Origin: Marivita sp.
GTDB lineage: Bacteria; Pseudomonadota; Alphaproteobacteria; Rhodobacterales; Rhodobacteraceae
Reading direction: 5' to 3'
NCBI RefSeq assembly: GCF_020055675.1
Contig: NZ_JAIPUS010000001.1
Span: 124,001 to 188,000 of the forward strand
Length of the DNA stretch: 64,000 bases
A model generated the notes under the pieces. That model had not been told where the DNA came from. It worked only from the letters and a program-made list of their open reading frames with translations, and ran no database searches. The translations under genes and the position numbers were made by a program. Of this stretch, positions 7,654 to 56,681 are shown in pieces (within the stretch, counting starts at the first letter, position 1; the number at the start of each line of letters is the position of its first letter).

Positions 7654-8654
7654 GACATTCCTTCCCCTTCTCGGCCATCGTTGGACAGGACCAGATGAAG
7701 CTGGCCATGATCCTCACCGCCATCGACCCCGGCATCGGCGGTGTTCTGGTATTTGGCGACCGGGGCACCGGCAAATCCACCGCGGTGCGCGGGCTCGCGG
7801 CGCTGCTTCCGCCGATCACCAAGCTGGAAGGCAGCGTCACCAATGCCGAAACGCAGGACGACATGCCCGCCTGGGCAGAGCCTGTTTCCGGCGCCTCGAT
7901 CAGCGCACCGACGCCGGTGGTCGACCTGCCCCTGGGCACAACCGAGGATCGCCTTGTCGGCGCGCTGGATATCGAACGCGCGCTCAGCCGGGGGGAAAAG
8001 GCGTTTGAACCCGGTCTGCTGGCCAAGGCCAATCGTGGCTATCTTTATATCGACGAGGTGAACCTCCTGGAGGATCACCTCGTCGATTTGCTGCTGGACG
8101 TCGCACAATCGGGCGAGAACGTGATCGAACGCGAAGGTCTGTCCGTGCGCCACGACGCGCGCTTCGTGCTGGTGGGCTCTGGCAACCCTGAAGAGGGCGA
8201 ATTGCGTCCGCAACTCTTGGACCGGTTTGGCCTTTCGGTCGAGGTGCGGTCGCCTGACGACATTGATGAACGGGTCGAAGTGATCCGCCGCCGTGCCGCG
8301 TTCGACACCAACCCGGATGCCTTTGTCGAAAAATGGTCCGTCGAAGATACCAGGATCCGCGATGCGATCCTGGCCGCCCGCGCCGTGTTGGCTTCAACCG
8401 ACGCGCCGGACGCCACGTTGCGCGATTGCGCCGGCCTGTGTGTTGCCATCGGTTCCGACGGCTTGCGCGGCGAGCTCACGCTGCTGCGCGCCGCCCGTGC
8501 GCTGGCCGCGTATCAAGGAAGCGACAAGGTCACGCGAGATCATCTTCGCGCAGTCGCCTCCATGGCCCTCAGCCACCGCTTGCGGCGCGATCCGCTCGAC
8601 GATGCCGGCTCATCCACCCGCGTCGACCGCACGGTCGAGGAAGTCTTTGCATGA
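7650..8654 (+). CDS. bchI: Magnesium chelatase ATPase subunit I BchI
   Basis: FPFSAIVGQDQMKLAMILTAIDPGIGGVLVFGDRGTGKSTAVRGLAALLP; ATGA overlaps with crtA and bchD. Confidence 0.97.
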   Translation: MRHSFPFSAIVGQDQMKLAMILTAIDPGIGGVLVFGDRGTGKSTAVRGLAALLPPITKLEGSVTNAETQDDMPAWAEPVSGASISAPTPVVDLPLGTTEDRLVGALDIERALSRGEKAFEPGLLAKANRGYLYIDEVNLLEDHLVDLLLDVAQSGENVIEREGLSVRHDARFVLVGSGNPEEGELRPQLLDRFGLSVEVRSPDDIDERVEVIRRRAAFDTNPDAFVEKWSVEDTRIRDAILAARAVLASTDAPDATLRDCAGLCVAIGSDGLRGELTLLRAARALAAYQGSDKVTRDHLRAVASMALSHRLRRDPLDDAGSSTRVDRTVEEVFA

Positions 8655-10345
8655 AGCAAGACCCGGCTGCCATCCAGGTGCAGGGCCAGTTGGCGCTGAC
8701 ACTCTTGGCGGTTGATCCGGCCGGGTTGGGCGGACTTCACCTGCGCGCGAGGGCAGGGCCGGTCCGGGACCGGTTTTGTGCTCCGATCAAGATATTTTTT
8801 CCCAGTTCGCGCCGTATCTCACCGTCGATCTCCGATCTTCAGCTCTTTGGCGGTGTCGATATCGGCGAAACCCTGACGCGGGGTAGGCTGGTGCATGCCA
8901 AGGGTCTGCTCGACGCGCCGACACCGCTCGTCTTCACGATGGCGGAACGCTGCGAACCCGGGCTTGCAGCGCGGCTGGCGCAGGGGCTCGATTCCGGCGT
9001 CGGTCATGCGCTGATCCTGCTGGACGAAGGGGCGGAGGATGATGAAATCGCCCCAACCACGCTAACCGAGCGGCTGGCCTTTCGCGTCGATCTTGATGGT
9101 TTGCGGCATGCAGACCTGCCCAGCCTCGTGATCCCCGATGCCGATGTGGACCGGGCCCGCGAGGCTCTGACCGATGTGAATATCCCCCAGGATGTGCCAA
9201 CGGCGCTTGCCGTGACGGCAATCCGCTTCGGCATCGGGTCCCTGCGCGCGCCCCTTCTGGCGCTTGCGGCCGCGCGGGCGAATGCCGCCTTGAACAACCG
9301 GGACGCGGTCAATCAGGACGATCTTCAGATCGCGGTTCAACTGGTTTTCGCCCATCGCGCCACGCAACTGCCAGCCGAGGAGGAGGAAGACGACCCACAG
9401 GATGACAGTCAACCGGACGACACGCCGGACGATCAAGCACCTGATGATCAGGACGACACTGATCTGGCTCTACCCGACGAGCTCTTGATCGAGGCGGTGA
9501 AGGCGATGTTGCCCTATGATGTGCTGTCCATGCTCGAAGGATCGGGCCGCACCAAAACCGGCGGCGGAAGCGGCGGTGCAGGGCAGAAGAAACGGGGTAA
9601 TCGGCGCGGACGGCCTTTGCCCTCGCGGCGGGGACGGCTGGATGGGGGCAACCGGATTGATCTTGTCGCCACCCTGCGTGCCGCGGTTCCGTGGCAAACG
9701 ATCCGCCGCAAGCAAAATCCCGAACGCTCCGGCGTGTTGATTCAGCCATCGGACATCCATGTGAAAGTCTACCAGGAAGTGTCCGACCGTCTTCTGATCT
9801 TTGCCGTGGATGCCTCGGGCTCGTCCGCCGTGGCCCGCCTGGCCGAGGCGAAAGGCGCGGTCGAGCTGATGCTGGCTGACGCCTATGCCCGCCGCGATCA
9901 TGTGTCACTTGTTGCCTTTCGCGGTGAAAGCGCCGATCTGATCCTGCCGCCAACGCGGTCTCTGGTGCAAACCAAGCGCCGACTTGCCGGTCTGCCCGGC
10001 GGCGGCGGTACACCGCTGGCCGCCGGTCTCAAGGCTGCGGCAGAGCTGGCGCAACGCGCGCGCGCGCAAGGGATGTCGCCGTCGGTCGCGGTGCTGACGG
10101 ATGGGCGTGCCAATGTCCCGCTGCCGGGAAAATCGGGACGCGCCGCTGCGCAGGGTGATGCCCAGGCGATGGCGCGGCATATCCGGGCGCTCAGGATCCC
10201 GAGCGCTATGATCGACACATCCGTACGGCCGCACCGCGATCTTCGTACGCTTTGCGACGTGATGGGCGCGCAGTACATCCCACTTCCCCGTGCTGATGCC
10301 AAAGGTCTGAGCCGAGCCATCGACACCGCTTTGGGTGAGAGCTGA
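8651..10345 (+). CDS. bchD: Magnesium chelatase subunit D BchD
   Basis: AAA-like N-terminus, acidic linker (EEEEDDPQDDSQPDDTPDDQAPDDQDD), VWA domain LLIFAVDASGSSAVARLAEAKGAVELML. Confidence 0.95.
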   Translation: MKQDPAAIQVQGQLALTLLAVDPAGLGGLHLRARAGPVRDRFCAPIKIFFPSSRRISPSISDLQLFGGVDIGETLTRGRLVHAKGLLDAPTPLVFTMAERCEPGLAARLAQGLDSGVGHALILLDEGAEDDEIAPTTLTERLAFRVDLDGLRHADLPSLVIPDADVDRAREALTDVNIPQDVPTALAVTAIRFGIGSLRAPLLALAAARANAALNNRDAVNQDDLQIAVQLVFAHRATQLPAEEEEDDPQDDSQPDDTPDDQAPDDQDDTDLALPDELLIEAVKAMLPYDVLSMLEGSGRTKTGGGSGGAGQKKRGNRRGRPLPSRRGRLDGGNRIDLVATLRAAVPWQTIRRKQNPERSGVLIQPSDIHVKVYQEVSDRLLIFAVDASGSSAVARLAEAKGAVELMLADAYARRDHVSLVAFRGESADLILPPTRSLVQTKRRLAGLPGGGGTPLAAGLKAAAELAQRARAQGMSPSVAVLTDGRANVPLPGKSGRAAAQGDAQAMARHIRALRIPSAMIDTSVRPHRDLRTLCDVMGAQYIPLPRADAKGLSRAIDTALGES

Positions 10346-10346
10346 C

Positions 10347-11201
10347 ATGGGGGTGGTTGACCTCTCGATGGAGTGGCCACACGCAGAACACTCGCGCATC
10401 GTGCAGGTACGCCCCCATCGCTGGCATGTTCAGGAAATGGGGCAGGGCGAAACCGTCCTGCTGCTGCACGGCGCCAGCGGCTCTACCCATTCGTGGCGTG
10501 ACGTGATGACCGATCTGGCCCGGGATCATCATGTCGTGGCGGTTGATCTTCCGGGCCATGGTCAGACAAAGCTGGGCTCGCGCCACCGGTCGTCCTTGTC
10601 TCTGATGGCGCAGGATCTGCAAAGCCTGATCGACCACGAAGGTTGGGTTCCAAAGGCGATCCTTGCGCATTCCGCAGGCGCGGCCCTCGGGCTACGTCTT
10701 TTGCAAGTCGCGAATAAAGACATTCAGCTTGTCGCGGTCAATCCGGCCCTGACGCCCTTCAAGGGGTTGGCGGGTGTGCTCTTTCCCATCGCGGCGCGTC
10801 TGGTCGCGCTCAGTCCGGCGATGGCCAAGCTGATCAAGCGGCGCATGGCAGGTCCAGGGCAGGTGGTGTCCCTGATGGAAACCACCGGCTCCAAGATCTC
10901 GCCCGAAGGTCTGAACCTGTATGCCAAGCTTTTTCGCAGCGAGTCGCACCTGGATGGCGCGTTGCTGATGATGGCGCAGTGGAAACTGGACGGGCTTGTT
11001 GCGGATCTGCCCAAGATCACCGCGCCCTGCACGTTTATCGTCGGCACGAACGACAAGGCGGTGCCGCCTTCGTCTGTCTTTGACAGTGCACGCAAAATGC
11101 CGAATGCGGAGGTTATCGCGTATGACGGATACGGGCATCTTCTGCACGAGGAAGCACCCAGCCTGGTTGCTGATCACCTGCGCGCGGATCTGCGCAAGTA
11201 G
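10347..11201 (+). CDS. bchO: Alpha/beta hydrolase BchO, putative magnesium chelatase accessory protein
   Basis: HGASGSTHSWRDVMTDLARDHHVVAVDLPGHGQT, AHSAGAALGLRL; follows bchID. Confidence 0.9.
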   Translation: MGVVDLSMEWPHAEHSRIVQVRPHRWHVQEMGQGETVLLLHGASGSTHSWRDVMTDLARDHHVVAVDLPGHGQTKLGSRHRSSLSLMAQDLQSLIDHEGWVPKAILAHSAGAALGLRLLQVANKDIQLVAVNPALTPFKGLAGVLFPIAARLVALSPAMAKLIKRRMAGPGQVVSLMETTGSKISPEGLNLYAKLFRSESHLDGALLMMAQWKLDGLVADLPKITAPCTFIVGTNDKAVPPSSVFDSARKMPNAEVIAYDGYGHLLHEEAPSLVADHLRADLRK

Positions 11202-15912: not shown

Positions 15913-16742
15913 TGCAAGACCGCTTTGCGGATGTTTTCATCGACGTCGGGCCGTTTTCCAAACCAGTGTTCGAACCCCGGCACGGCCTGATGCAGCAACA
16001 TGCCCAAACCGTCCACCACGCGGCATCCCTTTTCCTCGGCGGTGGCAAGCAAACCTGTCCGCAGGGGGCTATAAACAAGGTCGGCCACGATCACGCCTAG
16101 TTTCAATCCATCCAGCGGGACGCCCATTTCCCTATGTCCGGTCATGCCAAGCGAGGTCGTGTTCACGACCAGATCCGAATCGGCAAGACTATTCCCGGCG
16201 TCCGCCCAATCCGCAACCTCGATCCGATTGCCAAAATCGTCCCGTAATTTTTCGGCACGCTCTCGGGTCCGGTTGGTCAGGATGATCCGCGGCACGCCAA
16301 CATCCAGCAAAGAGAACAGTACCGCGCGCGCCGCGCCTCCGGCACCAAACACCACCGCCGTCCCGGATTTCGGGTTCCAGTTCGGAACAGTCTGGCGAAT
16401 ATTCTCGATGAACCCATATCCATCGGTGTTATCCGCGAGAATCCGCCCATCCTTTTGAAAAGTCAGCGTATTCGCCGCACCGATCACTGTGGCACGGTCA
16501 GTGATCTCGTCAGCGATATTCATCACGGTTTCCTTGTGCGGAATCGTGACATTGGCCCCGACAAAACCAAGGTCCGGCAAACGCGGCAACAGGTCCGTCA
16601 GGTCATCCGGTGCGATATCCAGCGGGATATAATGCCCCGGTATCCCATATTTGCGAAGCCAGTAGCCATGCACATCCGGGCTCTTGGAGTGGGCAATCGG
16701 GTGGCCGATCACAGCGGCCAAGGGGATTTTTGCGTTACTCAT
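15909..16742 (-). CDS. aroE: Shikimate dehydrogenase
   Basis: [36 protein letters not shown]...[10 protein letters not shown]...[15 protein letters not shown]. Confidence 0.95.
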
Positions 16743-17338
16743 CCGTCGATCCGTCCCGTCAATACAAGGTGGTTCAAAAGCTCCAGCAGCGGAAGTCCAA
16801 GCACAGTGAAATAGTCCCCCTGCACCTGTGTAAAGAGCCGCGCGCCTTCTTCTTCCAACTTGTAGGCCCCCACCGAATGGCGCACGCTGTCCCAGTTCCG
16901 CTCTATGTAACTATCGAGAAAAGCATCGGAAAAATCGCGCATCCGGAGCCGGACCACACCGACGTGGCGCCATGTCGGCTTAGCATCCTCGTACAATACC
17001 GCAGCCGATAGCAGCGTGTGGGACGTATTCCGCAAAAGACGTAATTGATCCCGCGCCTCGTCCGGGCTTTTGGGTTTCGACAGCACTGCCTTGTTCACCG
17101 ACAGGACCTGGTCGCAGCCCAGAACCAGAGTTCCGGGCGATTTTTCCGACACCTTGCGCGCCTTCATCTCGGCCAGGGTATCCGCGATATCTCGGGACGC
17201 GGCCTCTTCGGCCTCAAGCGCCTGCCGGATCGACTCCTCATCGATTCGTGCGGGTCGGACATCTATCCTGAGTCCCGCATTTCGTAGGAGGTCTGCTCGG
17301 ATCTGGGAGCCGGATGCGAGGATCAGATCAAGATTCAT
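16739..17338 (-). CDS. maf: Maf family nucleotide pyrophosphatase
   Basis: [25 protein letters not shown]...LVLGCDQVL...[35 protein letters not shown]. Confidence 0.93.
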
Positions 17339-17849
17339 GGGGACAACTCTTCGGACAACCTGGGTTTGTTTACCGGAGTGTTTTGGTGAAAACCGGTCCA
17401 AACGGCAAGGAAGAAGAGAACTCGGCAAGTTGCCCTGTCGTCCAATCCGGGTTCTGCCCCATGTGGAAAGGATAAGTCAGTTGCCCACGCTTGTCTCGTC
17501 AAGTATCGGAAATGCGAGTTTATCCCGGTTTTATCCACAAGAGATATATCTATATATAGACATAATTTCAGGTACTTACGCGCGTTAAATCCATACAGTC
17601 CCGGTTTTGCCCACAAAAGCGCAAGTTCAGTCTGGCCTTGGGATAAGTCTTGAACAGATTGTTAATCCACAGGCAGGGGACGGCACTACTAACCACAAAA
17701 ACTTTACTTTTTTCTTTATTATTTTAACGTGACCCGGACGTTTGACAGCATGCCAAGCCTCGACTAAGAGCAACACAGTCCTGTTCTGGACCTTACTTTC
17801 CTGAGACAACGAAGATACGACTGCCAACCTGCGCAGTCCGGGATATTTC
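17339..17849. other. oriC: Candidate chromosomal replication origin (oriC)
   Basis: AT-rich maf-rho intergenic region; perfect DnaA box TTATCCACA at 17531-17539; one-mismatch box TAATCCACA at 17663-17671; degenerate TTATCC/GGATAA elements at ~17470, ~17519, ~17641; AT-rich tracts agatatatctatatatagacataattt and aaaactttacttttttctttattattttaac; flanking genes on each side mostly transcribed away from it. Confidence 0.75.
17531..17539 (+). promoter_or_regulatory. Perfect DnaA box TTATCCACA
   Basis: Exact 9-mer in the AT-rich maf-rho intergenic region. Confidence 0.75.
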
Positions 17850-19118
17850 ATGACCGAAAAATTGAACCTTGCCGACCTCAAGGCAAAAAGCCCCAAAGAC
17901 CTTCTTTCGATGGCCGAGGAGTTGGAAATCGAAAACGCATCAACGATGCGTAAAGGCGAGATCATGTTCCAGATTCTGCGCGAACGCGCGGATGAAGGGT
18001 GGACGATCTTCGGGGATGGTGTGCTTGAAGTGCTCCAGGACGGCTTCGGTTTCCTTCGCTCGCCTGAGGCAAACTATCTTCCCGGTCCTGACGATATCTA
18101 TGTTTCCCCGGAAATGATCCGCAAGTTTTCACTCCGCACCGGCGATACCATCGACGGTGAGATGAAGGCGCCCGAGGACAACGAGCGATATTTCGCTCTG
18201 CTGAATTGCACGCAGATCAACTTCCAGGAACCAGAACGCGCCCGGCACAAGATTGCCTTCGACAACCTGACACCGCTCTATCCGGACGAGCGGTTGAACA
18301 TGGAAATCGAGGATCCAACGATCAAGGATCGGTCCGCCCGGATTATCGACCTGGTTGCACCGATCGGTAAAGGCCAAAGATCACTCATCGTCGCACCACC
18401 CCGGACGGGCAAAACTGTTTTGTTGCAGAACATTGCGAACTCCATCGAACGCAACCATCCGGAATGCTACCTGATCGTTCTCCTGATCGACGAGCGGCCC
18501 GAAGAGGTCACCGACATGCAGCGCTCGGTCAGGGGCGAGGTCGTTTCCTCCACCTTTGATGAACCGGCGACGCGCCACGTCGCAGTGTCTGAAATGGTGA
18601 TCGAGAAAGCCAAACGCCTCGTGGAGCATAAACGAGATGTAGTGATACTGTTGGACTCGATAACTAGACTTGGTAGAGCGTTCAACACGGTGGTGCCCTC
18701 GTCGGGGAAGGTTCTGACCGGGGGTGTAGACGCGAATGCGTTGCAACGGCCCAAGAGGTTCTTTGGCGCAGCCCGGAATATCGAAGAAGGAGGATCGCTC
18801 ACGATCATCGCGACGGCCCTGATCGATACTGGCAGCCGGATGGATGAAGTGATCTTTGAGGAATTCAAGGGTACGGGCAACTCGGAAATTGTTCTGGATC
18901 GCAAGGTTGCAGACAAGCGCGTGTTCCCATCGATGGACATCCTGAAATCCGGCACGCGCAAGGAAGAACTGCTGGTCGACAAGGGCGATCTCCAGAAAAC
19001 CTTTGTCCTGCGCCGCATCCTGAATCCGATGGGCACAACCGACGCGATCGAATTCCTGCTCTCCAAGCTCAAGCAAACGAAAACAAATTCGGAATTCTTC
19101 GACTCCATGAATTCGTAG
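17850..19118 (+). CDS. rho: Transcription termination factor Rho
   Basis: [43 protein letters not shown]...[21 protein letters not shown]...[11 protein letters not shown]. Confidence 0.98.
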
Positions 19119-20425: not shown

Positions 20426-22309
20426 GTGTTTCACGTGAAACAATTTGATTTCGATGTCATCGTTGTTGGAGGCGGTCACGCTGGTTGCGAGGCTGCACAT
20501 GCGGCCGCACGGATGGGCGCTCGGACTGCGCTTGTCACGCTGACGGAAGAGGACATTGGTGTCTTGTCGTGTAATCCGGCGATTGGTGGCCTTGGCAAGG
20601 GCCATCTTGTCCGGGAGATTGACGCGTTTGACGGGATTATGGGACGCGTCGCTGACAAGGCTGGGATACAATTTCGATTGCTGAATCGCCGCAAGGGACC
20701 CGCGGTCCAAGGACCACGCGCACAGGCAGATCGCAAAATCTATCAAACAGAAATGCTGGCGGCGACGAAAGCCCAAGGCAATCTGGAGATTGTTCTCGGA
20801 GAGGTGACGGACCTTTGTAAAACTGGTTCAACGATAGATGGGGTAGTGATCAATGGCGATCAAGAGATCACAGCGCCATCCGTTGTTCTGACAACGGGAA
20901 CGTTCCTGCGTGGTGTAATCCACATCGGAGACCAACAGATTTCTGGTGGCCGTATGGGGGAACGACCGTCAAATGATCTGGCCAAAACACTGGAGTCCTT
21001 CGATCTGCCTTTGGGCCGTCTAAAAACGGGAACACCACCTCGGCTTGATGGCCGGACAATCAATTGGGATGACCTTGAAGACCAGCCTGGCGACGACAGC
21101 CCGGTGATGTTCTCTTTCATGTCGAAAGCGCCAACTGCACCACAAGTTGCCTGCGCTATTACGCATACGAATGAACGGACGCACGACATCATCCGCACAA
21201 ACCTGGACAGATCCGCGATGTATGGCGGCAACATTGATGGTGTGGGCCCGCGATATTGTCCATCGATCGAGGACAAGGTTGTGCGTTTTGCAGACAAGAC
21301 ATCCCACCAGATTTTTCTCGAACCGGAAGGCATAAACGACGATACGGTTTATCCGAACGGGATTTCGACGTCACTGCCTGAAGAGGTTCAGCTCGAATAT
21401 GTCCGGTCGATCAAAGGCCTTGAACGAGCAGAGATTTTGCAACCGGGATACGCGATTGAGTATGATTATGTTGATCCGCGTGCCTTGAACCTTGATTTGG
21501 CTGTGAAGTCGGCTGCTGGGTTGTACCTGGCTGGCCAGATCAACGGAACCACAGGCTATGAAGAAGCAGCTGCGCAGGGTCTTGTGGCTGGCCTTAACGC
21601 AGCCAGTCGATCGATGGATAAGGGGGGGGTAACCTTCAGTCGAGCCGACAGTTATATTGGTGTCATGATCGATGATCTGACAACACGGGGCGTATCTGAG
21701 CCTTACCGGATGTTCACATCGCGTGCCGAGTATCGCTTGTCCCTGCGGGCAGATAACGCTGACCAAAGGCTGACTCCAAAAGCGCTTGACTTGGGCTGTG
21801 TGTCTGAAGAGCGCAAAACTGCATTCATGGCGAAAATGGAGTTGATCGAGGCGGGGAGGCGGGATCTTGACAATCTGATGGTTTCTTCGAAGCAACTTGT
21901 CGAGGCAGGCGTATTGATCTCTCAGGATGGGACAAAAAGAACAGGGTTTGAGTGCCTTGCGATTGAAGCCGTCTCGTGGGACGCCCTCGTGTTAATTTCG
22001 CCCGACCTGGCGAACATTGACAATGGGACACGGGCACAGCTTTCGAAGGATGCGCTTTATGCCAATTATATTGCGCGTCAGCAAAGGGATATCGAATCTC
22101 TACGTCGGGACGAAGCTCAGGTGATACCTGTGGACTTCGATTTTACGCAGATTGAAGGGTTATCGAATGAGCTGAAGTCAAAACTGGACAGTCAAAAACC
22201 CGCGAACATTGCCCAGGCGTCCCGGGTTGATGGCATGACACCCTCTGGCCTTCTTTTGCTGTTGTCTAAAATACGTGCCGCGTCCGCGAAAAAGCAGGCT
22301 GTGGGATGA
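20426..22309 (+). CDS. mnmG: tRNA uridine-5-carboxymethylaminomethyl synthesis enzyme MnmG (GTG start)
   Basis: [30 protein letters not shown]...[21 protein letters not shown]. Confidence 0.97.
20427..20442. promoter_or_regulatory. parS: parS centromere site 1 (perfect 16-bp palindrome)
   Basis: TGTTTCACGTGAAACA; overlaps the mnmG start codon and encodes its MFHVKQ N-terminus. Confidence 0.93.
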
Positions 22310-22893
22310 ATGCTTCACGTGAAACAACAGACCGGTTTAAACTCTACTTGAACTTGCTCCGTAAGTGGTCGCCAAAGATCAACTTGGTTTCAAAAGCTTC
22401 TTTGGCAGATGCTGGGAAACGTCATTTCTCGGATTCCTTGCAGTTGGTTGAGTTATGTCCGGTGCCACCAGCGCATTGGGTCGACCTAGGGTCTGGTGCC
22501 GGCTTTCCCGGCGCCGTGGTTGCAATAGCCTTAGCGCGCACCCACACCAGGGTAACCTTGGTCGAGAGTGATCAGCGCAAGGCGGCGTTCTTGCGCACTG
22601 TTTCACGTGAAACAAATGTTCCATTTGATGTTGTTGCCAACCGAATCGAGAGCTTGGATCCGTTGGAAGCTGATGTCCTCAGCGCACGCGCGCTTGCCCC
22701 TGTTGATGTTCTTTTGGAATTCACAAACCGTCACATGAAAAAGAACGGAACCGCCTTTTTTCCGAAAGGAGAAACCTGGGCAAACGAAGTGGCTCACGCC
22801 GAAAAACAGTGGCGATTCTCCCTGGAAGTCCATAAAAGTAAGACAAACGCAAACGCGGCAATCCTACAGATCGGAGATCTATCTCGTGTATGA
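22306..22893 (+). CDS. rsmG: 16S rRNA (guanine527-N7)-methyltransferase RsmG (GidB)
   Basis: [34 protein letters not shown]...[18 protein letters not shown]. Confidence 0.96.
22311..22326. promoter_or_regulatory. parS: parS site 2 (one mismatch)
   Basis: TGCTTCACGTGAAACA versus TGTTTCACGTGAAACA; lies in rsmG codons 2-7. Confidence 0.85.
22599..22614. promoter_or_regulatory. parS: parS site 3 (perfect 16-bp palindrome)
   Basis: TGTTTCACGTGAAACA inside rsmG (encodes ..TVSRET..). Confidence 0.93.
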
Positions 22894-23698
22894 TCCGACA
22901 CGCCCCGCTGGACCCAAGATAATAGCAATCGCGAACCAGAAAGGTGGGGTGGGCAAGACGACAACCGCGATAAATTTTGCATCCGCCTTGGCCGAGATCG
23001 GCCAACGTGTTCTTGTTGTTGATCTTGATCCACAGGGAAACGCGTCGACTGGTCTGGGCCTGATGCCTGAAAACAGGAATGCAACGACGTATGATCTGCT
23101 GCTGGACGATTTTCCGCTGGGAGATATCATTTGCGAAACAACCCAAAAAGGGTTGAGCATCGTGCCGTCCACAACCGACCTTAGCTCTGCCGACATTGAA
23201 TTAATTGCCAACGAAAAGCGCAGCTACCTTTTGCACGACGCTTTGCGACAGCCAGAAATGGATAGATTTGGCTTCGATTTTATCCTGATCGATTGTCCAC
23301 CATCTCTTAACCTTTTGACGGTAAACGCCATGGTGGCGGCGCATTCTGTTCTCGTACCTTTGCAAAGCGAGTTCTTTGCTTTGGAAGGATTGAGCCAATT
23401 GATGTTAACGATCCGGGAAGTTCGCCAATCCGCCAACCCGAAACTCAGGATAGAAGGGGTGGTTCTTACCATGTACGACGCGCGAAATAACCTATCTCAA
23501 CAAGTTGAAAACGATGCGCGGGATAATCTTGGGGATTTGGTGTTCGAGACGGTAATACCAAGAAATGTAAGGGTGAGCGAAGCGCCGTCCTATGCGATGC
23601 CGGTTCTTGAATATGATACAAACTCTAAAGGTGCCGCAGCGTATCGCGCGTTGGCACGGGAGTTTCTGACCAAAAATGAAACGATGACAGCAGCGTAG
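22886..23698 (+). CDS. parA: Chromosome partitioning ATPase ParA
   Basis: KIIAIANQKGGVGKTTTAINFASALAEIGQRVLVVDLDPQGNASTGLG. Confidence 0.97.
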   Translation: MYDPTRPAGPKIIAIANQKGGVGKTTTAINFASALAEIGQRVLVVDLDPQGNASTGLGLMPENRNATTYDLLLDDFPLGDIICETTQKGLSIVPSTTDLSSADIELIANEKRSYLLHDALRQPEMDRFGFDFILIDCPPSLNLLTVNAMVAAHSVLVPLQSEFFALEGLSQLMLTIREVRQSANPKLRIEGVVLTMYDARNNLSQQVENDARDNLGDLVFETVIPRNVRVSEAPSYAMPVLEYDTNSKGAAAYRALAREFLTKNETMTAA

Positions 23699-23707
23699 AG
23701 GCGGATC

Positions 23708-24616
23708 ATGTCAGAGAAAAAAGAGCAGCGACGAGGGCTGGGGCGGGGTCTTTCCGCATTGATGGCAGATATAGAGCCCGAGGCTGAGCCTGCAACCGAA
23801 CCCGCCCAACGCCCGACGCAGGTTTTGCCAGTCGACCAGTTGTTTCCCAACCCGGACCAGCCACGCCGGTCATTCGATACCGAAGCATTGGAAGAGCTGA
23901 CAAATTCTATCCGGAGCAAAGGCGTCATCCAGCCGTTAATCGTCCGTCAACGCGGAGAGTCCGGATCGCAATTCGAGATCGTCGCTGGTGAACGTCGATG
24001 GCGGGCGGCTCAGGCGGCTGGCGTGCATGAAGTTCCAGTGGTTTTGCGCGACTTTTCCGATGAGGATGTCCTTGAAATCGCGATTATCGAGAATATCCAG
24101 CGCGCTGATTTGAACCCGATCGAAGAGGCGGCTGGATACGAGCAATTGATGAATCGCTTTGGTCACACGCAGGAAAAGCTCGCCCAGGCTTTGGGTAAGA
24201 GCCGTAGCCACATCGCAAATCTGTTGCGGCTTCTCAATCTGCCGGACGTCGTCAAGACGGCTGTGACGGATGGAAAACTGTCTGCGGGACACGCGCGCGC
24301 CTTGGTAACGGCGCCTGATCCCACTCATCTGGCAGGGCGGATCGTGCGAAATGGGCTATCCGTGCGCGAGACGGAGCGGCTGGTTAAAGAAGCGCTTAAC
24401 CCAACGGCAGAATCAAAACCCAAAGGGGCGTCCAAACCGAGCGCCACGGCGAAGGATGCGGATACCAAGGCGCTCGAAGCAGATCTGTCAGCGGCCTTGG
24501 ATATGAAGGTCTCAATCACGCATCAGGCGGGCAAAGAATCCGGCACTGTGTCAATCGGGTACGAGTCGCTCGAAGATCTGGACGCATTGTGTATGGTGCT
24601 TAGCGCGACCAAATAA
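23708..24616 (+). CDS. parB: Chromosome partitioning protein ParB
   Basis: RRGLGRGLSALMAD...LFPNPDQPRRSFDTEALEELTNSIRSKGVIQPLIVR...VAGERRWRAAQAAG. Confidence 0.97.
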   Translation: MSEKKEQRRGLGRGLSALMADIEPEAEPATEPAQRPTQVLPVDQLFPNPDQPRRSFDTEALEELTNSIRSKGVIQPLIVRQRGESGSQFEIVAGERRWRAAQAAGVHEVPVVLRDFSDEDVLEIAIIENIQRADLNPIEEAAGYEQLMNRFGHTQEKLAQALGKSRSHIANLLRLLNLPDVVKTAVTDGKLSAGHARALVTAPDPTHLAGRIVRNGLSVRETERLVKEALNPTAESKPKGASKPSATAKDADTKALEADLSAALDMKVSITHQAGKESGTVSIGYESLEDLDALCMVLSATK

Positions 24617-45300: not shown

Positions 45301-47153
45301 TGCGAAATTTCTACCATGGCCTGATCCTGCGAGCGGGCAACCTGATCAATCCGAAATCACCGGCGCTGGGTGTGCCGCCACGCCAGCTTCGGGCGTTCAT
45401 GGCTTGGTGCCTGCGCGGCGGGTGGCGTATCGTCTGGTTCGGTGTCCTGATCTCGGTTCTGGCGGGCATCACGGAAGTCGTCTCGATGCGGCTCCTGGGG
45501 TCGGTTGTCGATGCCGTTGCCGCCACACCTTCGAACGATTTTCTCGGTGAACATGGCTGGCTGGTCTTGGCCTGCGTCCTTGTTCTGCTGGTGGCGCGCC
45601 CGCTTTTGTTTGGCGGTCTGGCGCTGACGCAATCGGTGATGATCGGTCCGAACATCGGCATGCAGACGATGGCCCGCATGTTCCGCTGGACGCTGGGCCA
45701 GTCGGTGACATTCTTCGACAATGACTTTGCCGGCCGCCTGGCGCAGAAGAAGATGCAGGCCTCGACATCCCTGACGGAAATCGTGATCGAAACGGTGAAC
45801 GCCGTGACCTTTGGACTGGCCACGGTTCTGGGCACGGCGGTCCTGGTGGGGGCGGTCAATCTGTGGATGGTGCTGGCCCTGGCGCTCTGGTTCGCGGTCT
45901 ATGTCCTGTTCCTGCGCGTCATGCTGCCGATCATCCGCACGCGTTCTGCCGCGCGGGCCGAGGCGAAGGCGCAGGTCACCGGGCAGGTCGTGGACACGAT
46001 CAGCAACATCAAGACGGTCAAGCTGTTCGCCGGAGACCGTCACGAAGACAGCAAGGCGCTGGGCGCAATGGAAGATCTGCGCCACACTGCCCTGCGCTTT
46101 GGCGAAGCGCAGACCCTGTTCCGGCTTGGCCTGATGTTCATCGCCGGTATCCTGCCCGTCGTCTTGGTGGCCATGGCCATCGCCCTGCGTGGCACCGGCG
46201 TGACACCGGGTGACGTGGCCGCTGTCGGAGCGGTGGGGATTCGCCTGTCACAGATGACCGGCTGGATCAGCTATACGATGATGGTGATCTATAGCCATCT
46301 GGGAGAGGTCGAGGACGGCATGAACACCCTCGCCCCGCCCGACCGGATCGAAGATGCGGCAGAGGCGCGCGATCTGGATGTGACCGATGGGGCAATCCGT
46401 TTCGAAACCGTATCATTTGCCTATGGCCAGCGCGATGGCGGGATCGAGAATGTCACGCTCGACATTCATCCAGGCGAAAAGCTCGCCATTGTCGGCGCGT
46501 CAGGTGCCGGCAAATCGACCCTCGTGTCTTTGCTGTTGCGGCTCTATGATACGGAAAAAGGCGCGATCAGCATCGACGGGCGGAACGTGATGCACGTCAC
46601 ACAGGAAAGCCTGCGGCGCCAGATCGGCATGGTCACGCAGGAAACCGCGATGTTCAATCGCTCCGCTCTTGACAATATCCGTTATGGACGGCCCGACGCC
46701 TCTGCCGAAGAGGTCTATGCCGCTGCCCGCAAAGCCGAGGCGCATGAGTTCATCCAGGACTTGTCCGACCATCGCGGGCGCAAGGGATACGAGGCGCATC
46801 TGGGTGAACGTGGTGTCAAGCTGTCCGGCGGTCAGCGGCAGCGCATCGCGCTCGCCCGTGCCATTCTCAAGGATGCGCCGATCCTCGTTCTGGACGAAGC
46901 GACAAGCGCGCTTGATTCCGAGGTCGAAGCCCAGATCCAGTCGGCACTGGAGCGGGTGATGCAGGGCAAGACGGTTCTTGCCATCGCGCACCGCCTGTCG
47001 ACCATCGCCAGCATGGACCGGATCATTGTCATGGATCACGGCCATATCGCCGAGATGGGGACACATGACGACCTGTTGTCCAGGAACGGTCTTTATGCGC
47101 GCTATTGGGACAGGCAATCGGGTGGCTTCATCGGCGCGAAGGCGGCAGAATAG
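45297..47153 (+). CDS. ABC transporter ATP-binding/permease protein (exporter half 2)
   Basis: TM domain plus LAIVGASGAGKSTLVSLLLRLYDTEKG, LSGGQRQRIALARAILKDAPILVLDEATSALDSE; ATGA overlap with the previous gene. Confidence 0.93.
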   Translation: MMRNFYHGLILRAGNLINPKSPALGVPPRQLRAFMAWCLRGGWRIVWFGVLISVLAGITEVVSMRLLGSVVDAVAATPSNDFLGEHGWLVLACVLVLLVARPLLFGGLALTQSVMIGPNIGMQTMARMFRWTLGQSVTFFDNDFAGRLAQKKMQASTSLTEIVIETVNAVTFGLATVLGTAVLVGAVNLWMVLALALWFAVYVLFLRVMLPIIRTRSAARAEAKAQVTGQVVDTISNIKTVKLFAGDRHEDSKALGAMEDLRHTALRFGEAQTLFRLGLMFIAGILPVVLVAMAIALRGTGVTPGDVAAVGAVGIRLSQMTGWISYTMMVIYSHLGEVEDGMNTLAPPDRIEDAAEARDLDVTDGAIRFETVSFAYGQRDGGIENVTLDIHPGEKLAIVGASGAGKSTLVSLLLRLYDTEKGAISIDGRNVMHVTQESLRRQIGMVTQETAMFNRSALDNIRYGRPDASAEEVYAAARKAEAHEFIQDLSDHRGRKGYEAHLGERGVKLSGGQRQRIALARAILKDAPILVLDEATSALDSEVEAQIQSALERVMQGKTVLAIAHRLSTIASMDRIIVMDHGHIAEMGTHDDLLSRNGLYARYWDRQSGGFIGAKAAE

Positions 47154-47192
47154 ATCTCGACCCCCGCCCCGCGCTGAGGCACAAGCCGCATC

Positions 47193-48413
47193 ATGACAAC
47201 AGTAACGATCAAGCGCCTGGGCCATCTTGGTGACGGCATCGCCGACGGCCCGGTCTATGTGCCTGCCGCGCTTCCCGGTGAAGTGGTGAGCGGAACCCTA
47301 GTTGGCGATCACCTGCGCGACCCCAAGATCGATACGCCGTCCGGGCACCGGGTCAAACCGCCCTGCCAACATGCCAAATCCTGTGGCGGGTGCCAATTGC
47401 AGCACGCGGCGGATGCGTTCGTGTCCGACTGGAAGCGAGACGTGGTGCGACAGGCGCTCGCCGCGCATGGCATCGCGATTGATCTGCCGGCCCCGATCAC
47501 CTCGCCGCCGCAGTCGCGCCGCCGCGCCACCTTTTCGGTGCGCCGCACCAAGAAAGGCGCGCTGGCCGGGTTTCACATGAAAGCGTCGGATACGATCATC
47601 GCGGTGACGAATTGCCAATTGGTGCATCCCGATTTGACAGCCGCCCTCCCGATGGTCGAGGCGCTGGGCATGTTGGGCGCGTCGCGCAAAGGCGAAATGT
47701 CGGTGCGTCTCACGCGGACCGATACCGGGCTGGACGTCGCGGTCTCCGGTGGCAAACCGATGGATATAGATCTGCACCAGGCGCTCGCCGGTCTGGCGCG
47801 GGAATACGATCTGGCCCGCATCTCGTGGGAGGGCGAGATTGCCCTGCAACGCCGCGCGCCGGTACTGCGGATTGGCCCGGCGGATGTCACAGTGCCGCCC
47901 GGTGCGTTCCTGCAAGCCACCCAACACGGCGAAACCGCGCTGATCACCGCGGTTGTTCAGGCTCTGACAGGGGCAAAACGCATCGTGGACCTGTTTTCGG
48001 GCTGCGGCACCTTTGCGCTGCCACTGGCGCAAAATGCCATGGTGCATGCCGTCGAAGGCGACCGCGACATGACCAATGCGCTGGACCAGGCCTGGCGCAA
48101 CACAGCCGGTCTCAAGCGTATCACCCACGAGCCGCGCGACCTGTTTCGCAACCCTGTCCTGGCCGAGGACCTGGTGCGGTTCGACGCGGCCGTGATCGAT
48201 CCGCCACGGGCCGGGGCCGGGGCCCAAGTGGCAGAGTTGGCACAGGCGCGGATTCCGCGGATTGCCCATGTGTCCTGCAACCCGGCGACCTTTGCGCGGG
48301 ATTGTGCGACCCTGATCCGCGCGGGATACAGCCTTGATTGGGTAAGAGTGGTTGACCAGTTTCGATGGTCCACCCATGTGGAACTCGTGGCGCTGTTGCG
48401 TCTCGACGGATAA
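47193..48413 (+). CDS. Class I SAM-dependent RNA (uracil-5) methyltransferase, RlmD/TrmA-like
   Basis: IKRLGHLGDGIADGPVYVPAALPGEVV (TRAM-like), CQHAKSCGGCQLQH, IVDLFSGCGTFALPLA, IDPPRAGAGAQV, ISCNPATFARD-like IAHVSCNPATFARD. Confidence 0.92.
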   Translation: MTTVTIKRLGHLGDGIADGPVYVPAALPGEVVSGTLVGDHLRDPKIDTPSGHRVKPPCQHAKSCGGCQLQHAADAFVSDWKRDVVRQALAAHGIAIDLPAPITSPPQSRRRATFSVRRTKKGALAGFHMKASDTIIAVTNCQLVHPDLTAALPMVEALGMLGASRKGEMSVRLTRTDTGLDVAVSGGKPMDIDLHQALAGLAREYDLARISWEGEIALQRRAPVLRIGPADVTVPPGAFLQATQHGETALITAVVQALTGAKRIVDLFSGCGTFALPLAQNAMVHAVEGDRDMTNALDQAWRNTAGLKRITHEPRDLFRNPVLAEDLVRFDAAVIDPPRAGAGAQVAELAQARIPRIAHVSCNPATFARDCATLIRAGYSLDWVRVVDQFRWSTHVELVALLRLDG

Positions 48414-48424
48414 GAGGCAACGCA

Positions 48425-49189
48425 ATGCGCAGCACGGTCGCGGACTTCATTGAACAAGGCTGGGTCACGAATTTCATCATCGGTGTGATCCTGTTCAACG
48501 CCATTCTTCTGGGCCTTGAAACATCGGATCAGGCGATGGCGGTGGCGGGACCGCTGATCCTCGCCCTCGATACCCTGTGCCTGTTCATCTTCGTCGTGGA
48601 AATCGCGCTCAAGATATTTGCGCATGGCTGGCGCTTTTTCCGCAGCGGCTGGAACCTTTTCGATTTCTTCATCGTCGGCATTGCCCTTGTGCCTGCAAGC
48701 CAGGGGTTCTCGGTGTTGCGGGCCCTGCGAATCCTGCGTGTGCTGCGCGTGATCTCGACGGCCCCGCGGCTGAGACGGGTGGTGGAAGGATTCGTCACCG
48801 CGCTTCCGGGCATGGGCAGCGTATTTCTCCTGATGGCGCTGATCTTCTATATCGCGTCGGTGATGGCGACCAAGCTGTTCGGTGATGCCTTTCCCGCTTG
48901 GTTCGGCGACCTTGGAAAGTCCGGCTATTCCCTGTTCCAGATCATGACGCTGGAATCCTGGTCCATGGGCATCGTGCGCCCGGTGATGGAGGTATTCCCC
49001 TGGGCGTGGGCGTTCTTTGTGCCGTTCATCATGGTCACGACCTTTGCTGTCGTGAACCTTCTGGTCGGCCTGATCGTGAATTCGATGCAGGACGCGCATG
49101 CCGAGGAATCGAACGAGCGCACGGATGCCTACCGCGACGAGGTGCTGGCCCGGCTCGAGGCGATTGAAAAACGCCTGAACGAGCGATGA
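48425..49189 (+). CDS. Bacterial voltage-gated (sodium) ion channel, NaChBac/NaVSp type
   Basis: Six TM segments; S4-like VLRALRILRVLRVIS with Arg every third residue; pore filter TLESWSMG; C-terminal charged tail ARLEAIEKRLNER. Confidence 0.88.
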   Translation: MRSTVADFIEQGWVTNFIIGVILFNAILLGLETSDQAMAVAGPLILALDTLCLFIFVVEIALKIFAHGWRFFRSGWNLFDFFIVGIALVPASQGFSVLRALRILRVLRVISTAPRLRRVVEGFVTALPGMGSVFLLMALIFYIASVMATKLFGDAFPAWFGDLGKSGYSLFQIMTLESWSMGIVRPVMEVFPWAWAFFVPFIMVTTFAVVNLLVGLIVNSMQDAHAEESNERTDAYRDEVLARLEAIEKRLNER

Positions 49190-49260
49190 CATCACGCTTT
49201 TGTTTGTCGCCTCCGCAACAATTCGTGTAGCGTGGGGCAAAACAAACGAGCAGCTTTTTC

Positions 49261-49746
49261 ATGTTACGAATTCTGTGCCTTCTGGCCTTGGCGCTTGGGC
49301 TCACCGCCTGTGGCAAGTTTCCGACCTATGATGGTCCCGAAGTGACCCGCGTGATCGTGCAAAAGGCGGATCGCAAGATGCACCTGCTGCATCATAACGC
49401 GATCCTGAAGACCTATGACGTCGGTCTCGGCTTTGCCCCCAATGGCCACAAGCAAGTCGAAGGGGACGGCAAAACCCCCGAAGGGGATTACCTGATCGAC
49501 CGTCGCAACCCGAACAGCAGCTTCTACCTGTCGATCGGGATCGACTATCCGCGCCCCCGCGACATCGAATATGCCCGGTCCATGGGCAAATCGCCGGGCG
49601 GCGATATTTTCATTCATGGCCGGCCCTGGAAATACCGCAAGGGTGGGCGGGATTGGACATGGGGGTGCATTGCCGTGACCAACCGGGAGATGCGCGAGAT
49701 TTACGCGATGGTGAAAAACGGCACGCCGATCACGATCAACCCGTAG
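49261..49746 (+). CDS. L,D-transpeptidase (YkuD) family lipoprotein
   Basis: Lipobox-like LALGLTAC; GDGKTPEGDYLIDRRNPNSSFYLSIGIDYPRP...GGDIFIHGRPW...DWTWGCIAVTNREMREIY. Confidence 0.88.
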   Translation: MLRILCLLALALGLTACGKFPTYDGPEVTRVIVQKADRKMHLLHHNAILKTYDVGLGFAPNGHKQVEGDGKTPEGDYLIDRRNPNSSFYLSIGIDYPRPRDIEYARSMGKSPGGDIFIHGRPWKYRKGGRDWTWGCIAVTNREMREIYAMVKNGTPITINP

Positions 49747-49761
49747 GGTCCAGACCGCAGA

Positions 49762-50316
49762 TCAGGATGGCGCGTTCATCGGGGTGAACCCGCTTTCGTC
49801 CGGCGAGCCAAGCACAAGGTTCCACCAAATCTTGCCATTGGATTCCTGGAACCAGGCAAAGCCCATGTCCCGCGCCGATGGATCGAGTATCACGGTGCGC
49901 GTGTTGTTGGCTTCCATCCAGGCGCCCAGTGTCTCAAGCTCGGTCTCATAGGTTTCCGAGATCGCTTCACCGACAAGCCGGCCGGTGTAGCCGGCGCGTT
50001 GAACCCGGTCGATCGGTGACGACCCGTCCGACCCGAAATGCCAAGGGCGGTTCTGCACGCTCATGTCACGGGAATGGGTCGCCGCGGCGGCAGTCAACCG
50101 GGCATTGAGTTCGAGCGCCGGTGCGCCGGACGCTTGCCGCAGCGCGTTGATCGCGTCGAGCATACGGAACTGGACGCGCGCGGTATCACCCGAGCGGATG
50201 CGATAGACCTTGGGCAGCGGCTTTCCGTCGGGGCCAAGCTGTGGGGGCGCGGGCGCGGTTGCGCACGCGGTCAAGGCAAATCCCGCAATCCCCAACAAGA
50301 ACGTCGAACACTTCAT
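49762..50316 (-). CDS. CAP domain (SCP-like) lipoprotein
   Basis: FALTACATAP lipobox; ALELNARLTAAAATHSRDMSVQNRPWHFGSDGSSPIDRVQRAGYTGRLVGEAISE. Confidence 0.82.
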   Translation of the reverse strand: MKCSTFLLGIAGFALTACATAPAPPQLGPDGKPLPKVYRIRSGDTARVQFRMLDAINALRQASGAPALELNARLTAAAATHSRDMSVQNRPWHFGSDGSSPIDRVQRAGYTGRLVGEAISETYETELETLGAWMEANNTRTVILDPSARDMGFAWFQESNGKIWWNLVLGSPDESGFTPMNAPS

Positions 50317-50488
50317 TTCCAGCCACCCACTCCTGATCCTGCACGGGCTTATCCGCAGACATGGGTGGGATCAAACACACAAAACCGCGATTTGCCGAAA
50401 TGACATTCCTTTGAATTGCGACTGAGGCATTCACGCCATATGCTAATCACGTTGAATCACGATATTTCCAATACGAGGGGCCACAGAG

Positions 50489-51088
50489 ATGGCAAATTCA
50501 CCGCGCTTTCCCGTGAACCGTCGCAGCTTTCTGGCTGGATCGGCTGCGATGATCGCAACGCCCGCGATTGCGCAGGATGTTAATGACGGGTCCACGGTCG
50601 AGATCGAGAGCGATATCACCTCGAACGTGCGCCGCAATATTTCGAGCTTCCGCACATTGGATTGGCGCCCGTATTTCAGCGACCTAAACAATGGCGCGAT
50701 CCTGGTCGATATCGATTCGCGCGCCCTGCACTATTGGCAGGAAAATGGGAATTACCGGCTGTACCCATCCTCTGTCCCGTTGACAGACGATCTGACGCGC
50801 CGCGGCCGCACCAAGGTGACGTTCAAGGATCCCGAACCCGACTGGCGCCCGACGCCCTCGATGAAAGAACGGAACCCCGAGTGGCCGGATTACGTGCCTC
50901 CCGGTCCGGACAACCCCTTGGGCACCCGCGCGCTACATCTCAGCTGGACCTATTATCGCATCCACGGCACGCATGACACGCGCAAGATCGGACGGCGATC
51001 GTCCAATGGCTGCATCGGTTTGTACAACGAACATATCGAGGAACTTTACGGGCTGGCAGAAGTGGGCACTCAGGTGTTGCTAATTTGA
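50489..51088 (+). CDS. L,D-transpeptidase (YkuD) with Tat-like signal
   Basis: NRRSFLAGSAAMIATPAIAQ; LHYWQENGNYRLYPSSVPL...YYRIHGTHDTRKIGRRSSNGCIGLYNEHIEELYGLAEVGTQVLLI. Confidence 0.88.
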   Translation: MANSPRFPVNRRSFLAGSAAMIATPAIAQDVNDGSTVEIESDITSNVRRNISSFRTLDWRPYFSDLNNGAILVDIDSRALHYWQENGNYRLYPSSVPLTDDLTRRGRTKVTFKDPEPDWRPTPSMKERNPEWPDYVPPGPDNPLGTRALHLSWTYYRIHGTHDTRKIGRRSSNGCIGLYNEHIEELYGLAEVGTQVLLI

Positions 51089-51237
51089 CGACATCACGTC
51101 GAGGTTGGAAAGTTGTGCAAGAAGATAGATTTGCATTTGCCATGATAAGCTGGTTAGACAGTTTTACGAGGTAAGTCTTGGGTGCTTGTCGCGTGTCACT
51201 TCTATGTGCACCGACTTGCGAATATCTGGAGGTTAAT

Positions 51238-51429
51238 ATGAAGAAACTCGTTCTCGCCGCTGCGTTCGCCGGTGCTGCTTCGACAGCAATGGCCGGTTCT
51301 TACGCAAAAGACGACGTGGTCATGGAGCCGGTTGTTGTTGTTGAAGAAGCACAGCAAAGCTCCTCGTCCGCAGGTCTTATCATCCCGCTGGTCGTGATCG
51401 CCCTGCTGGCTGCAGCAGCTTCCGACTGA
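51238..51429 (+). CDS. Small (63 aa) protein: signal peptide, acidic Val-rich segment, Ser-rich linker, C-terminal TM
   Basis: MKKLVLAAAFAGAASTAMAGSYAKDDVVMEPVVVVEEAQQSSSSAGLIIPLVVIALLAAAASD; preceded by a ggagg RBS and followed by a strong terminator. Confidence 0.75.
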   Translation: MKKLVLAAAFAGAASTAMAGSYAKDDVVMEPVVVVEEAQQSSSSAGLIIPLVVIALLAAAASD

Positions 51430-51453
51430 TCCACATCGGATGAACAGAATAGA

Positions 51454-51485
51454 AAAAGGCGGTGTGCAAACACCGCCTTTTTTTG
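51454..51485. terminator. Bidirectional Rho-independent terminator (small protein / hemH)
   Basis: AAAAAGGCGGTGT-gcaa-ACACCGCCTTTTTTT. Confidence 0.88.
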
Positions 51486-51513
51486 TTCCGGGACCGGGGT
51501 ATCCGGTCAGACG

Positions 51514-52578
51514 TCAATCAAGCCATCCGGTCATGTTCTCTTCGACGACCGCCGCGAGAGCCTTGATATGGGCCTCGTCATCATTGAGACACGGGATATA
51601 GGTGAAATGCTCGCCGCCCGCCTCTTCGAAACTCTCCTTGATCTCTTCGTTGATCTCTTCGAGCGTTTCGATGCAATCCGCTGAAAACGCGGGGGCACAT
51701 ACGGCGATGTTCTTTTTCCCGTCCTCTTCGGCCAGCCGTGCCACCTCTTCCACCGTATAGGGCTTGAGCCACTCTTCCGGACCGAATTTCGACTGGAACG
51801 TGGTGGTGATTTCCGTGTCCTCCCACCCCAGTCGCTCCTTCAGCAAGCGCGTGGTTTTCTGGCACTGGCAGTGGTACGGGTCGCCTTCCAGGAGGTATCG
51901 CTTGGGAACCCCATGGTAGGAACACACAAGGATATCGGGCCGCGTGTCGAGCTTGTCATAGGCCCGTTCGATGGATTGCGCGAGTGCTTCGATATACTTG
52001 GGGTGCTGGAAATAGGGCTCGACGGTGCGCACCGTGGGTTGCCACTTTTCGTCCATCAAGGCGCGGAAAAACTGGTCATTCGCGGTTGCGGATGTCGCCC
52101 CCGCATAATGCGGATAGAGCGGGAAAAACAGGATTTTCCGGCACCCCGCCTCGATCATGTTGCGGACCTTTGATTTCGTCGATGGATTTCCGTAGCGCAT
52201 GCAGAAATCCACCATGACCTGATCGCCGTAGCGGTCCTGCATCGCCTTGCTCATCTTGGCGGTCTGGTCCTTGGTGATCGTCATGAGGGGGCTTTCGCCC
52301 TGCTCTTCGTTCCAGATCGACTTGTAGGCCTCACCCGAGCTGAACGGCCGCTTGGTCAGAATGATCAACTGCAAGAGCGGTTGCCAGAGCCATGGACTGT
52401 AGTCGATCACACGACGATCCGACAGGAATTCATTCAGATACCGCCGCATCGACCAGTAGTCATAGTTGTCCGGCGTGCCAAGATTGGCCAGGAGAACACC
52501 CACTTTCTCGGCCGGGATCTTGGGGTGGTCCGCCGGGGCGTGGGTGGGGCGTTGTGCTGTTTTCGTTGCATCCAACAT
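51514..52578 (-). CDS. hemH: Ferrochelatase
   Basis: KVGVLLANLGTPDNYDYWSMRRYLNEFLSDRRVIDYSPWLWQPLLQLIILTKRP...LVCSYHGVPKRYLLEGDPYHCQC. Confidence 0.95.
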   Translation of the reverse strand: MLDATKTAQRPTHAPADHPKIPAEKVGVLLANLGTPDNYDYWSMRRYLNEFLSDRRVIDYSPWLWQPLLQLIILTKRPFSSGEAYKSIWNEEQGESPLMTITKDQTAKMSKAMQDRYGDQVMVDFCMRYGNPSTKSKVRNMIEAGCRKILFFPLYPHYAGATSATANDQFFRALMDEKWQPTVRTVEPYFQHPKYIEALAQSIERAYDKLDTRPDILVCSYHGVPKRYLLEGDPYHCQCQKTTRLLKERLGWEDTEITTTFQSKFGPEEWLKPYTVEEVARLAEEDGKKNIAVCAPAFSADCIETLEEINEEIKESFEEAGGEHFTYIPCLNDDEAHIKALAAVVEENMTGWLD

Positions 52579-52633
52579 CGGGCCTGAATCCTTGAACAGT
52601 TTAGCGGGCTAACTAACCTCTCCAGAGGTCAGG

Positions 52634-53455
52634 TCAATCTTTCACCGGCGTTTCCACCGCGTTGAGCGCATCAGCAAGCCGCTGCGACGCGGATCCGGGG
52701 CGCAATGGCTGTGGTTGCGACGCATCCGGGGCCCAGCCCGTCAGGGTCATGATCTCGAAGGTGGCAGTCACCCGCCCGGCCTGATCCGAATATGTATCGG
52801 CATAAAGCGCCATCGCCTTGGCCAGCACGTCCCGCCGTGTGAAATTTCGGACGCGCGCGGCCAGCGCGTTGCTTTCCCCCATCGCGCGCAGATCGCGCAT
52901 CAGGTGCATCGGCGTCTCGTAGCTCGTGGTCAGAACCGCGCTGTCCGCGACCGGCAGGGCAAACCCGGCGCGCTGCAACAAGGCGCCCAGATCGCGGATA
53001 TCCGCCATCGGCGCGACGCGGGGCGACAACCCGCCCGTCACCGCGATTTCCGCCTGCCCCATTGCCGCGCGCAATTCCCAAAGCGTCTGCCCGCCCAGCG
53101 TCAGAACCAGCATCAGACCATCGGGTTGAAGCGCCCGCCGACACTGGATCAACTGCCCGACGGGATCATTTGCCCAGTGCAGCGCCATGGCATGGATCAC
53201 AAGGTCATGCGCAGCCTGTTCGAGGTCGAGAACCTCGGTATCTGCCACCAGCCGCGCCCCGGGAAAGCTGTCCTGCCAGATATGGGCAAATGGTGTGACG
53301 ATCGCAGGCGATTGAAAGGATTTGTTAACGAACGACAGGCGATCCTGCACGTCGGCCCGCGCCTCTTCGTGCAGGAACAGCGCAGCGTCGGCGCGCGCCC
53401 GCGCCCGGTATCGGGCCAGCGCATCGCAGTCTGTCAGGATAGGAGTTTCGGACAT
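52634..53455 (-). CDS. SAM-dependent methyltransferase (BioC/NDUFAF5-like)
   Basis: MSETPILTDCDALARYRARARADAALFLHEEARADVQDRLSFVNKSF...VIHAMALHWANDPVGQLIQCRRALQPDGLML. Confidence 0.85.
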   Translation of the reverse strand: MSETPILTDCDALARYRARARADAALFLHEEARADVQDRLSFVNKSFQSPAIVTPFAHIWQDSFPGARLVADTEVLDLEQAAHDLVIHAMALHWANDPVGQLIQCRRALQPDGLMLVLTLGGQTLWELRAAMGQAEIAVTGGLSPRVAPMADIRDLGALLQRAGFALPVADSAVLTTSYETPMHLMRDLRAMGESNALAARVRNFTRRDVLAKAMALYADTYSDQAGRVTATFEIMTLTGWAPDASQPQPLRPGSASQRLADALNAVETPVKD

Positions 53456-53457
53456 GG

Positions 53458-54186: not shown

Positions 54187-54273
54187 AACGCCACAGGCTT
54201 TCTGCCCATGGCCCTCTGGCACGCGTTGCAAAGGGTGCTTAAATCCCTGACAACAGCAAAAAGGGGAACCAAA

Positions 54274-54531
54274 ATGCCGAATATCGAAATTTATACATCG
54301 CCGCTCTGCGGATTCTGCCACTCTGCCAAACGCCTGCTCAGCCAGAAAGGCGCGTCTTTCAACGAGATCGACGTTCTGTCCGACCCCAACCGCAAGCCCG
54401 AGATGATCAAGCGCGCCAATGGGGGCCGCACCGTGCCGCAGATTTTCATCGGAGAGACCCATGTGGGAGGATGCGACGAACTCTTCGCGCTCGACCGCGC
54501 CGGCAAGCTCGATCCGATGCTCGCGGCCTGA
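54274..54531 (+). CDS. grxC: Glutaredoxin 3
   Basis: IEIYTSPLCGFCHSAKRLLSQKGASFNEIDV...GGRTVPQIFIGETHVGGCDEL. Confidence 0.93.
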   Translation: MPNIEIYTSPLCGFCHSAKRLLSQKGASFNEIDVLSDPNRKPEMIKRANGGRTVPQIFIGETHVGGCDELFALDRAGKLDPMLAA

Positions 54532-54536
54532 CCAAA

Positions 54537-55819: not shown

Positions 55820-55850
55820 CCCAGGGCCAGTGGCGCGTGCCTTCAAATGA

Positions 55851-55889
55851 AAAAGACACGCTCTCGGGGTCCTTCCCGGACAGAGCGTC
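55851..55889 (-). terminator. Intrinsic terminator downstream of ubiG
   Basis: Minus strand: GACGCTCTgtCCGGGaaggaCCCCGAGAGCGTGTCTTTTT; overlaps the ubiG stop codon. Confidence 0.65.
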
Positions 55890-56646: not shown

Positions 56647-56681
56647 GGTCTTTTGGTGTGTGAAGGCAATATAGGTGAAGT

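Follow-up and report, generated by a model that had tools for sequence, protein, structure and literature searches.

A probable chromosomal replication origin between maf and rho in a Roseobacter-group alphaproteobacterium close to Marivita

Does the 511-bp gap between maf and rho (17339-17849) contain the chromosomal replication origin of this bacterium, and if so, how much of the gap belongs to it? The window, i.e. the whole stretch of 64,000 nucleotides that was analysed, is part of a 374,919-bp contig (C8) of a draft assembly (3.60 Mb, 82 contigs); the closest named rho, at 97%, comes from a Marivita MAG. Earlier work makes an origin at this locus expected: Kopejtka et al. (2019, PMC6699656) used Ori-Finder to predict the oriCs of 101 closed Rhodobacteraceae genomes and counted proximity to parAB among their criteria, and R. 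sphaeroides oriC1 has been predicted from skew and ParB foci (PMC6315104). What is added here is the base-level architecture and the boundary of the expected origin, and with them an origin map at base resolution for a large marine family whose origins have so far mostly been predicted by software.

The first-pass annotation had proposed the entire gap as a candidate oriC. GC skew, parS sites, closed genomes of relatives, and conserved boxes together with a conserved module support an origin, and judging from the sequence we consider it very probable that the gap is the oriC of this bacterium, an alphaproteobacterium of the Roseobacter group near Marivita. The proposed core, however, comprises only the left ~395 bp.

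Genes and sequence elements of the gap

The genes and elements in and next to the gap are the following (window coordinates).

16739-17338, minus strand: maf (Maf-like nucleotide pyrophosphatase), left boundary gene (Pfam PF02545, 8e-44)
17339-17732, unstranded: proposed oriC core, with a DnaA-box array and two AT-rich unwinding candidates (from boxes, stability and family alignment)
17462-17475, minus strand: reverse DnaA element of degenerate sequence (CTTTCCACA and a GGATAA half-box), at a family-conserved reverse position ~190 bp before the module
17531-17539, plus strand: perfect DnaA box TTATCCACA, at a family-conserved forward position ~130 bp before the module
17539-17568, unstranded: central AT tract, the least stable 30 bp of the window, matched in position by an AT peak across 43 loci
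17638-17646, minus strand: weak reverse DnaA box TTATCCCAA with 2 mismatches, at a family-conserved position 10-30 bp before the module
17663-17671, plus strand: DUE-proximal DnaA box TAATCCACA (one mismatch), the family's most conserved box (exact match, alignment)
17672-17685, unstranded: GC-rich spacer GGCAGGGGACGGCA (alignment)
17686-17732, plus strand: CTACTA element and AT/T-rich tract, proposed DUE, equivalent of the family consensus CCTACnnAnnCATCATCCTTTCTT...
17741-17849, plus strand: probable rho promoter and 5' leader, with TTGACA at 17743 (suggested by comparison with a Marivita relative)
17850-19118, plus strand: rho, right boundary gene (Pfam PF07497, PF07498, PF00006)

Both flanks are largely transcribed away from the gap. 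Pfam searches confirm maf, aroE, coaE and dnaQ on the minus strand to the left, and rho, mnmE, mnmG, rsmG, parA and parB on the plus strand to the right; secB and fxsA, left of the gap on the plus strand, are exceptions that fit the earlier wording of the claim, which had spoken of the right flank and most of the left one.

The perfect box and the one-mismatch box that the first-pass annotation had named are both exact. A half-element (17520-17525) precedes the perfect box, and the "several" TTATCC/GGATAA half-elements of that annotation amount to 4 in the gap, where 0.20 are expected from the density in the window. In Markov-simulated gaps, a perfect box in 511 bp has P ~0.002, two boxes at ≤1 mismatch have P ~0.007, and the six boxes at ≤2 mismatches found in the gap (1.5 expected) have P ~0.004. 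Perfect boxes are rare in the assembly (19 only), and the sole one on C8 is the one in the gap. The cluster is therefore denser than chance would have it, with the caveat that this species has only two boxes at ≤1 mismatch. Box count alone makes it convincing to a moderate degree; conservation and position give it its strength. The two AT-rich tracts, which had been described as suited to a DNA unwinding element, coincide with the two 30-bp segments that nearest-neighbour energy ranks as least stable in all 64 kb (17539-17568, then 17697-17726). They adjoin boxes and are sequence-level candidates for unwinding.

The right end of the gap has a different character. Its last stretch, 17741-17849, is strongly conserved relative to the Marivita relative, and the conservation reaches the start of rho. 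The right ~110 bp are, as far as the comparison indicates, more likely rho promoter and leader than origin, and on this reading the origin core is 17339-17732. Rfam returned no match for the conserved region or leader, and a known RNA element was accordingly rejected; promoter predictions gave matches at chance level. The conserved stretch with its TTGACA could be an autoregulatory leader of rho.

Conservation in the family and comparison with Caulobacter

We compared 30 rho loci from the family, one per genus and including the present one. Divergent maf and rho were found in 29 of the 30. In a relative, L030, maf could not be found beside the origin, yet the DnaA box, the module, a hemJ-like ORF and rho were all retained. 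In many loci of the family an ORF of 149 aa, hemJ in the named loci, separates the origin from rho.

Alignment revealed a conserved 68-bp module, nTAATCCACAG, a spacer, CCTACnnAnTCATCATCCTTTCTT and a T/AT-rich tract, so that the order is last box, spacer, CCTAC...CATCATCC, AT tract. An HMM of the module that was trained without the window sequence finds the copy in the window at E 2e-6 as its sole match in the 375-kb contig, and in 15 of 19 named loci outside the training set it finds the module equally far from maf (E < 1e-4). Across 43 Rhodobacteraceae loci, boxes at ≤1 mismatch number 95, against 4.9 in shuffles, a count that shows conservation rather than probability, given the non-independence of related loci. 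The positions of the boxes are fixed (reverse at about -190, forward at about -130, reverse at about -20, forward at the module), with maxima of AT content at -105 to -75 and at +45 to +75. The sites in the window match all four box positions, and AAAGGATAAGTC of the degenerate element at 17462-17475 is identical in the Marivita relative. The distance from module to maf is 274-334 bp in the 43 loci, whether hemJ or rho comes next. As its spacing to maf and to the remaining boxes does not depend on which gene lies downstream, the module goes with the box array rather than with that gene.

The predicted Rhodobacteraceae oriCs (PMC6699656) were picked by DnaA boxes, a local GC minimum and proximity to the GC-disparity minimum and to parAB, and the present locus shows all of these. 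The position-specific architecture and the conserved module are not mentioned in the excerpt of that paper to which we refer.

In C. crescentus, the proven origin lies between hemE and COG1806/DUF299 (PMC1914354). In the loci that we fetched from Phenylobacterium, Brevundimonas and other orders, the gene order is aroE-maf-ppsR, gap, hemE ... rho; we take ppsR (Pfam PF03618) to be the DUF299 gene. The maf-rho gap corresponds to the same chromosomal slot, recognizable by the surviving neighbours maf and rho, but differs in its surroundings: ppsR (COG1806) was not found in the genome, hemE is 95 kb from the gap (C8:237040), and hemJ is on another contig (C71). The loss of ppsR and the displacement of hemE and hemJ are what makes maf and rho the present flanks. 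The first-pass annotation had noted that the usual intervening genes were missing and had given hemE as its example; this was right, and the set can now be completed as ppsR, hemE and hemJ. The origin seems to have kept its slot while genes on both sides left. The locus would then be a case of an alphaproteobacterial origin that holds its position while landmark genes are lost or moved, and a search by hemE and COG1806 would miss it.

Few good boxes plus weak ones, and an AT-rich region, are further traits that the gap has in common with Caulobacter Cori. For Cori, the use of moderate G-boxes together with weak W-boxes has been described (PMC4468827), whereas a perfect TTATCCACA box is present here. 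The gap contains no full CtrA site (TTAA-N7-TTAA), no GANTC and no IHF consensus. Over the first 400 bp of 48 relatives, full CtrA sites number 5, and GANTC is not enriched in the relatives (64 vs 69.7 expected). Control by CtrA or CcrM was therefore rejected. The absence of CtrA sites from the gap is in line with PMC4468827, according to which most other alphaproteobacterial origins show no such sites.

Chromosomal position and competing readings

Cumulative GC skew was computed over the whole of C8, and skew was sampled every 105-215 kb in four closed genomes from other genera of the family. The contig minimum is at C8:142483 (window 18483), 634 bp to the right of the gap. A minimum elsewhere would have spoken against the origin, and as far as a draft permits, the outcome is favourable. 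Skew on C8 is weak, with a local reversal at C8:170-200 kb: at C8:170000-200000 (window ~46000-64000 and beyond), on the expected leading-strand side, it goes negative, possibly because of a recent inversion or an acquired segment. In two of the four closed genomes (G013, G045) the interval of the skew switch includes rho, and in the other two (G049, G055) the best sampled switch is 0.1-0.3 Mb from rho. In all four, the opposite switch, i.e. the terminus, coincides with the rho antipode or is no more than about 0.25 Mb from it.

A search for parS TGTTTCACGTGAAACA at ≤1 mismatch found three sites in the 3.6-Mb assembly, all of them 2.6-4.8 kb to the right of the gap, and none elsewhere. They lie close to the partition genes.

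20427-20442, unstranded: parS, perfect (motif search)
22311-22326, unstranded: parS, one mismatch (motif search)
22599-22614, unstranded: parS, perfect (motif search)
22886-24616, plus strand: chromosome partition genes parA (22886-23698) and parB (23708-24616) (Pfam)

The gap could instead be a DnaA-controlled promoter region for divergent maf and rho (or hemJ in relatives), with the module serving the downstream gene as promoter or leader element. Divergent genes do require promoters in the gap, the right 110 bp resembles a rho promoter and leader, and DnaA boxes occur in promoters too, a probable example being the pair of perfect boxes on C14 that precedes a gene for ribonucleotide reductase. 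We nevertheless regard this explanation as very improbable: the constant spacing of the module to maf and the boxes ties it to the array, the gap is accompanied by the skew minimum and by every parS site, and neither the Rfam search nor the promoter predictions lend it support. Even less credible is an origin that lies nearby but elsewhere, e.g. next to dnaA (C8:50166, 91 kb to the left of the gap) or to the displaced hemE. Many bacteria have oriC at dnaA, the Caulobacter origin is beside hemE (PMC1914354), and GC-skew minima are coarse, but compared with the contig minimum the cumulative skew is ~1400 units higher at dnaA and ~1300 units higher at hemE, and C8 has its only perfect DnaA box, and the assembly its only parS sites, in or near the gap.

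The C14 pair (C14:84262-84313) consists of two perfect inverted DnaA boxes, 34 bp apart and ~270 bp upstream of an ORF for a B12-type ribonucleotide reductase. It was considered as a rival origin and rejected, as this location makes a DnaA-regulated promoter more likely. A box pair on C4 has ordinary surroundings, with exonuclease III-like and transketolase-like ORFs as read from translations. Tandem repeats carry TTATCCCCG in three copies at exact 185-bp steps (C29:17246-17624) and in two copies at a 184-bp step (C70:98015-98207).

A possible mode of origin opening

The sequence shows which elements are present, how conserved they are and where on the chromosome they lie; from this we infer DnaA binding, the melting site and initiation in the maf-rho gap as follows. 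DnaA would bind strong and weak boxes in a fixed arrangement, located ~190 (reverse), ~130 (forward) and ~20 bp (reverse) before the last forward box. This last box, TAATCCACA at 17663, would direct a DnaA filament over the GC-rich spacer and on into the T/AT-rich tract, so that 17686-17732 would melt; the central AT tract (17539-17568) is a second unwinding candidate. Helicase would then be loaded, forks would depart both ways along the co-oriented flanking genes, and ParB at the three nearby parS sites would segregate the new origins.

The BUS rule calls for a DnaA-box, a spacer of ≤16 bp and ≥3 DnaA-trios (PMC8287927); we tested it with at least three NTN triplets (3'-NAN-5'). The present locus is similar to a BUS in that a DUE-proximal box, a GC-rich spacer, CTA-type triplets and a T/AT-rich tract follow each other in the same order and orientation. 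It differs in that only two CTA triplets (CTACTA) follow the conserved box at 17663; enough trios are found only when the count starts from the box at 17689, which has 2 mismatches and lies in T-rich sequence. In one relative, CATCATC triplets begin ~23 bp from the box, as measured by eye. The strict rule holds in 23% of the 43 loci, compared with 41% of tail-shuffled controls, and a strict BUS/DnaA-trio reading of the conserved module was therefore rejected. Opening at 17686-17732 would, in our proposal, be directed by DnaA, but we do not class it as a BUS.

A more general idea, which we offer tentatively and think somewhat doubtful, is that Rhodobacteraceae origins share a lineage-specific unwinding junction. 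It would consist of TAATCCACA, a spacer of ~10-14 bp, CCTAC-nn-A-n-TCATCATCC and a T-rich AT tract, would be off the published DnaA-trio spacing, and might be engaged in a different register, by DnaA or by an unknown helper, without input from CtrA or CcrM. The conserved module makes a test case for origin opening where the standard DnaA-trio rule does not apply. As a separate observation, the bacteriochlorophyll genes bchD and bchO (window 8333-11201) are just 6-9 kb from the proposed origin.
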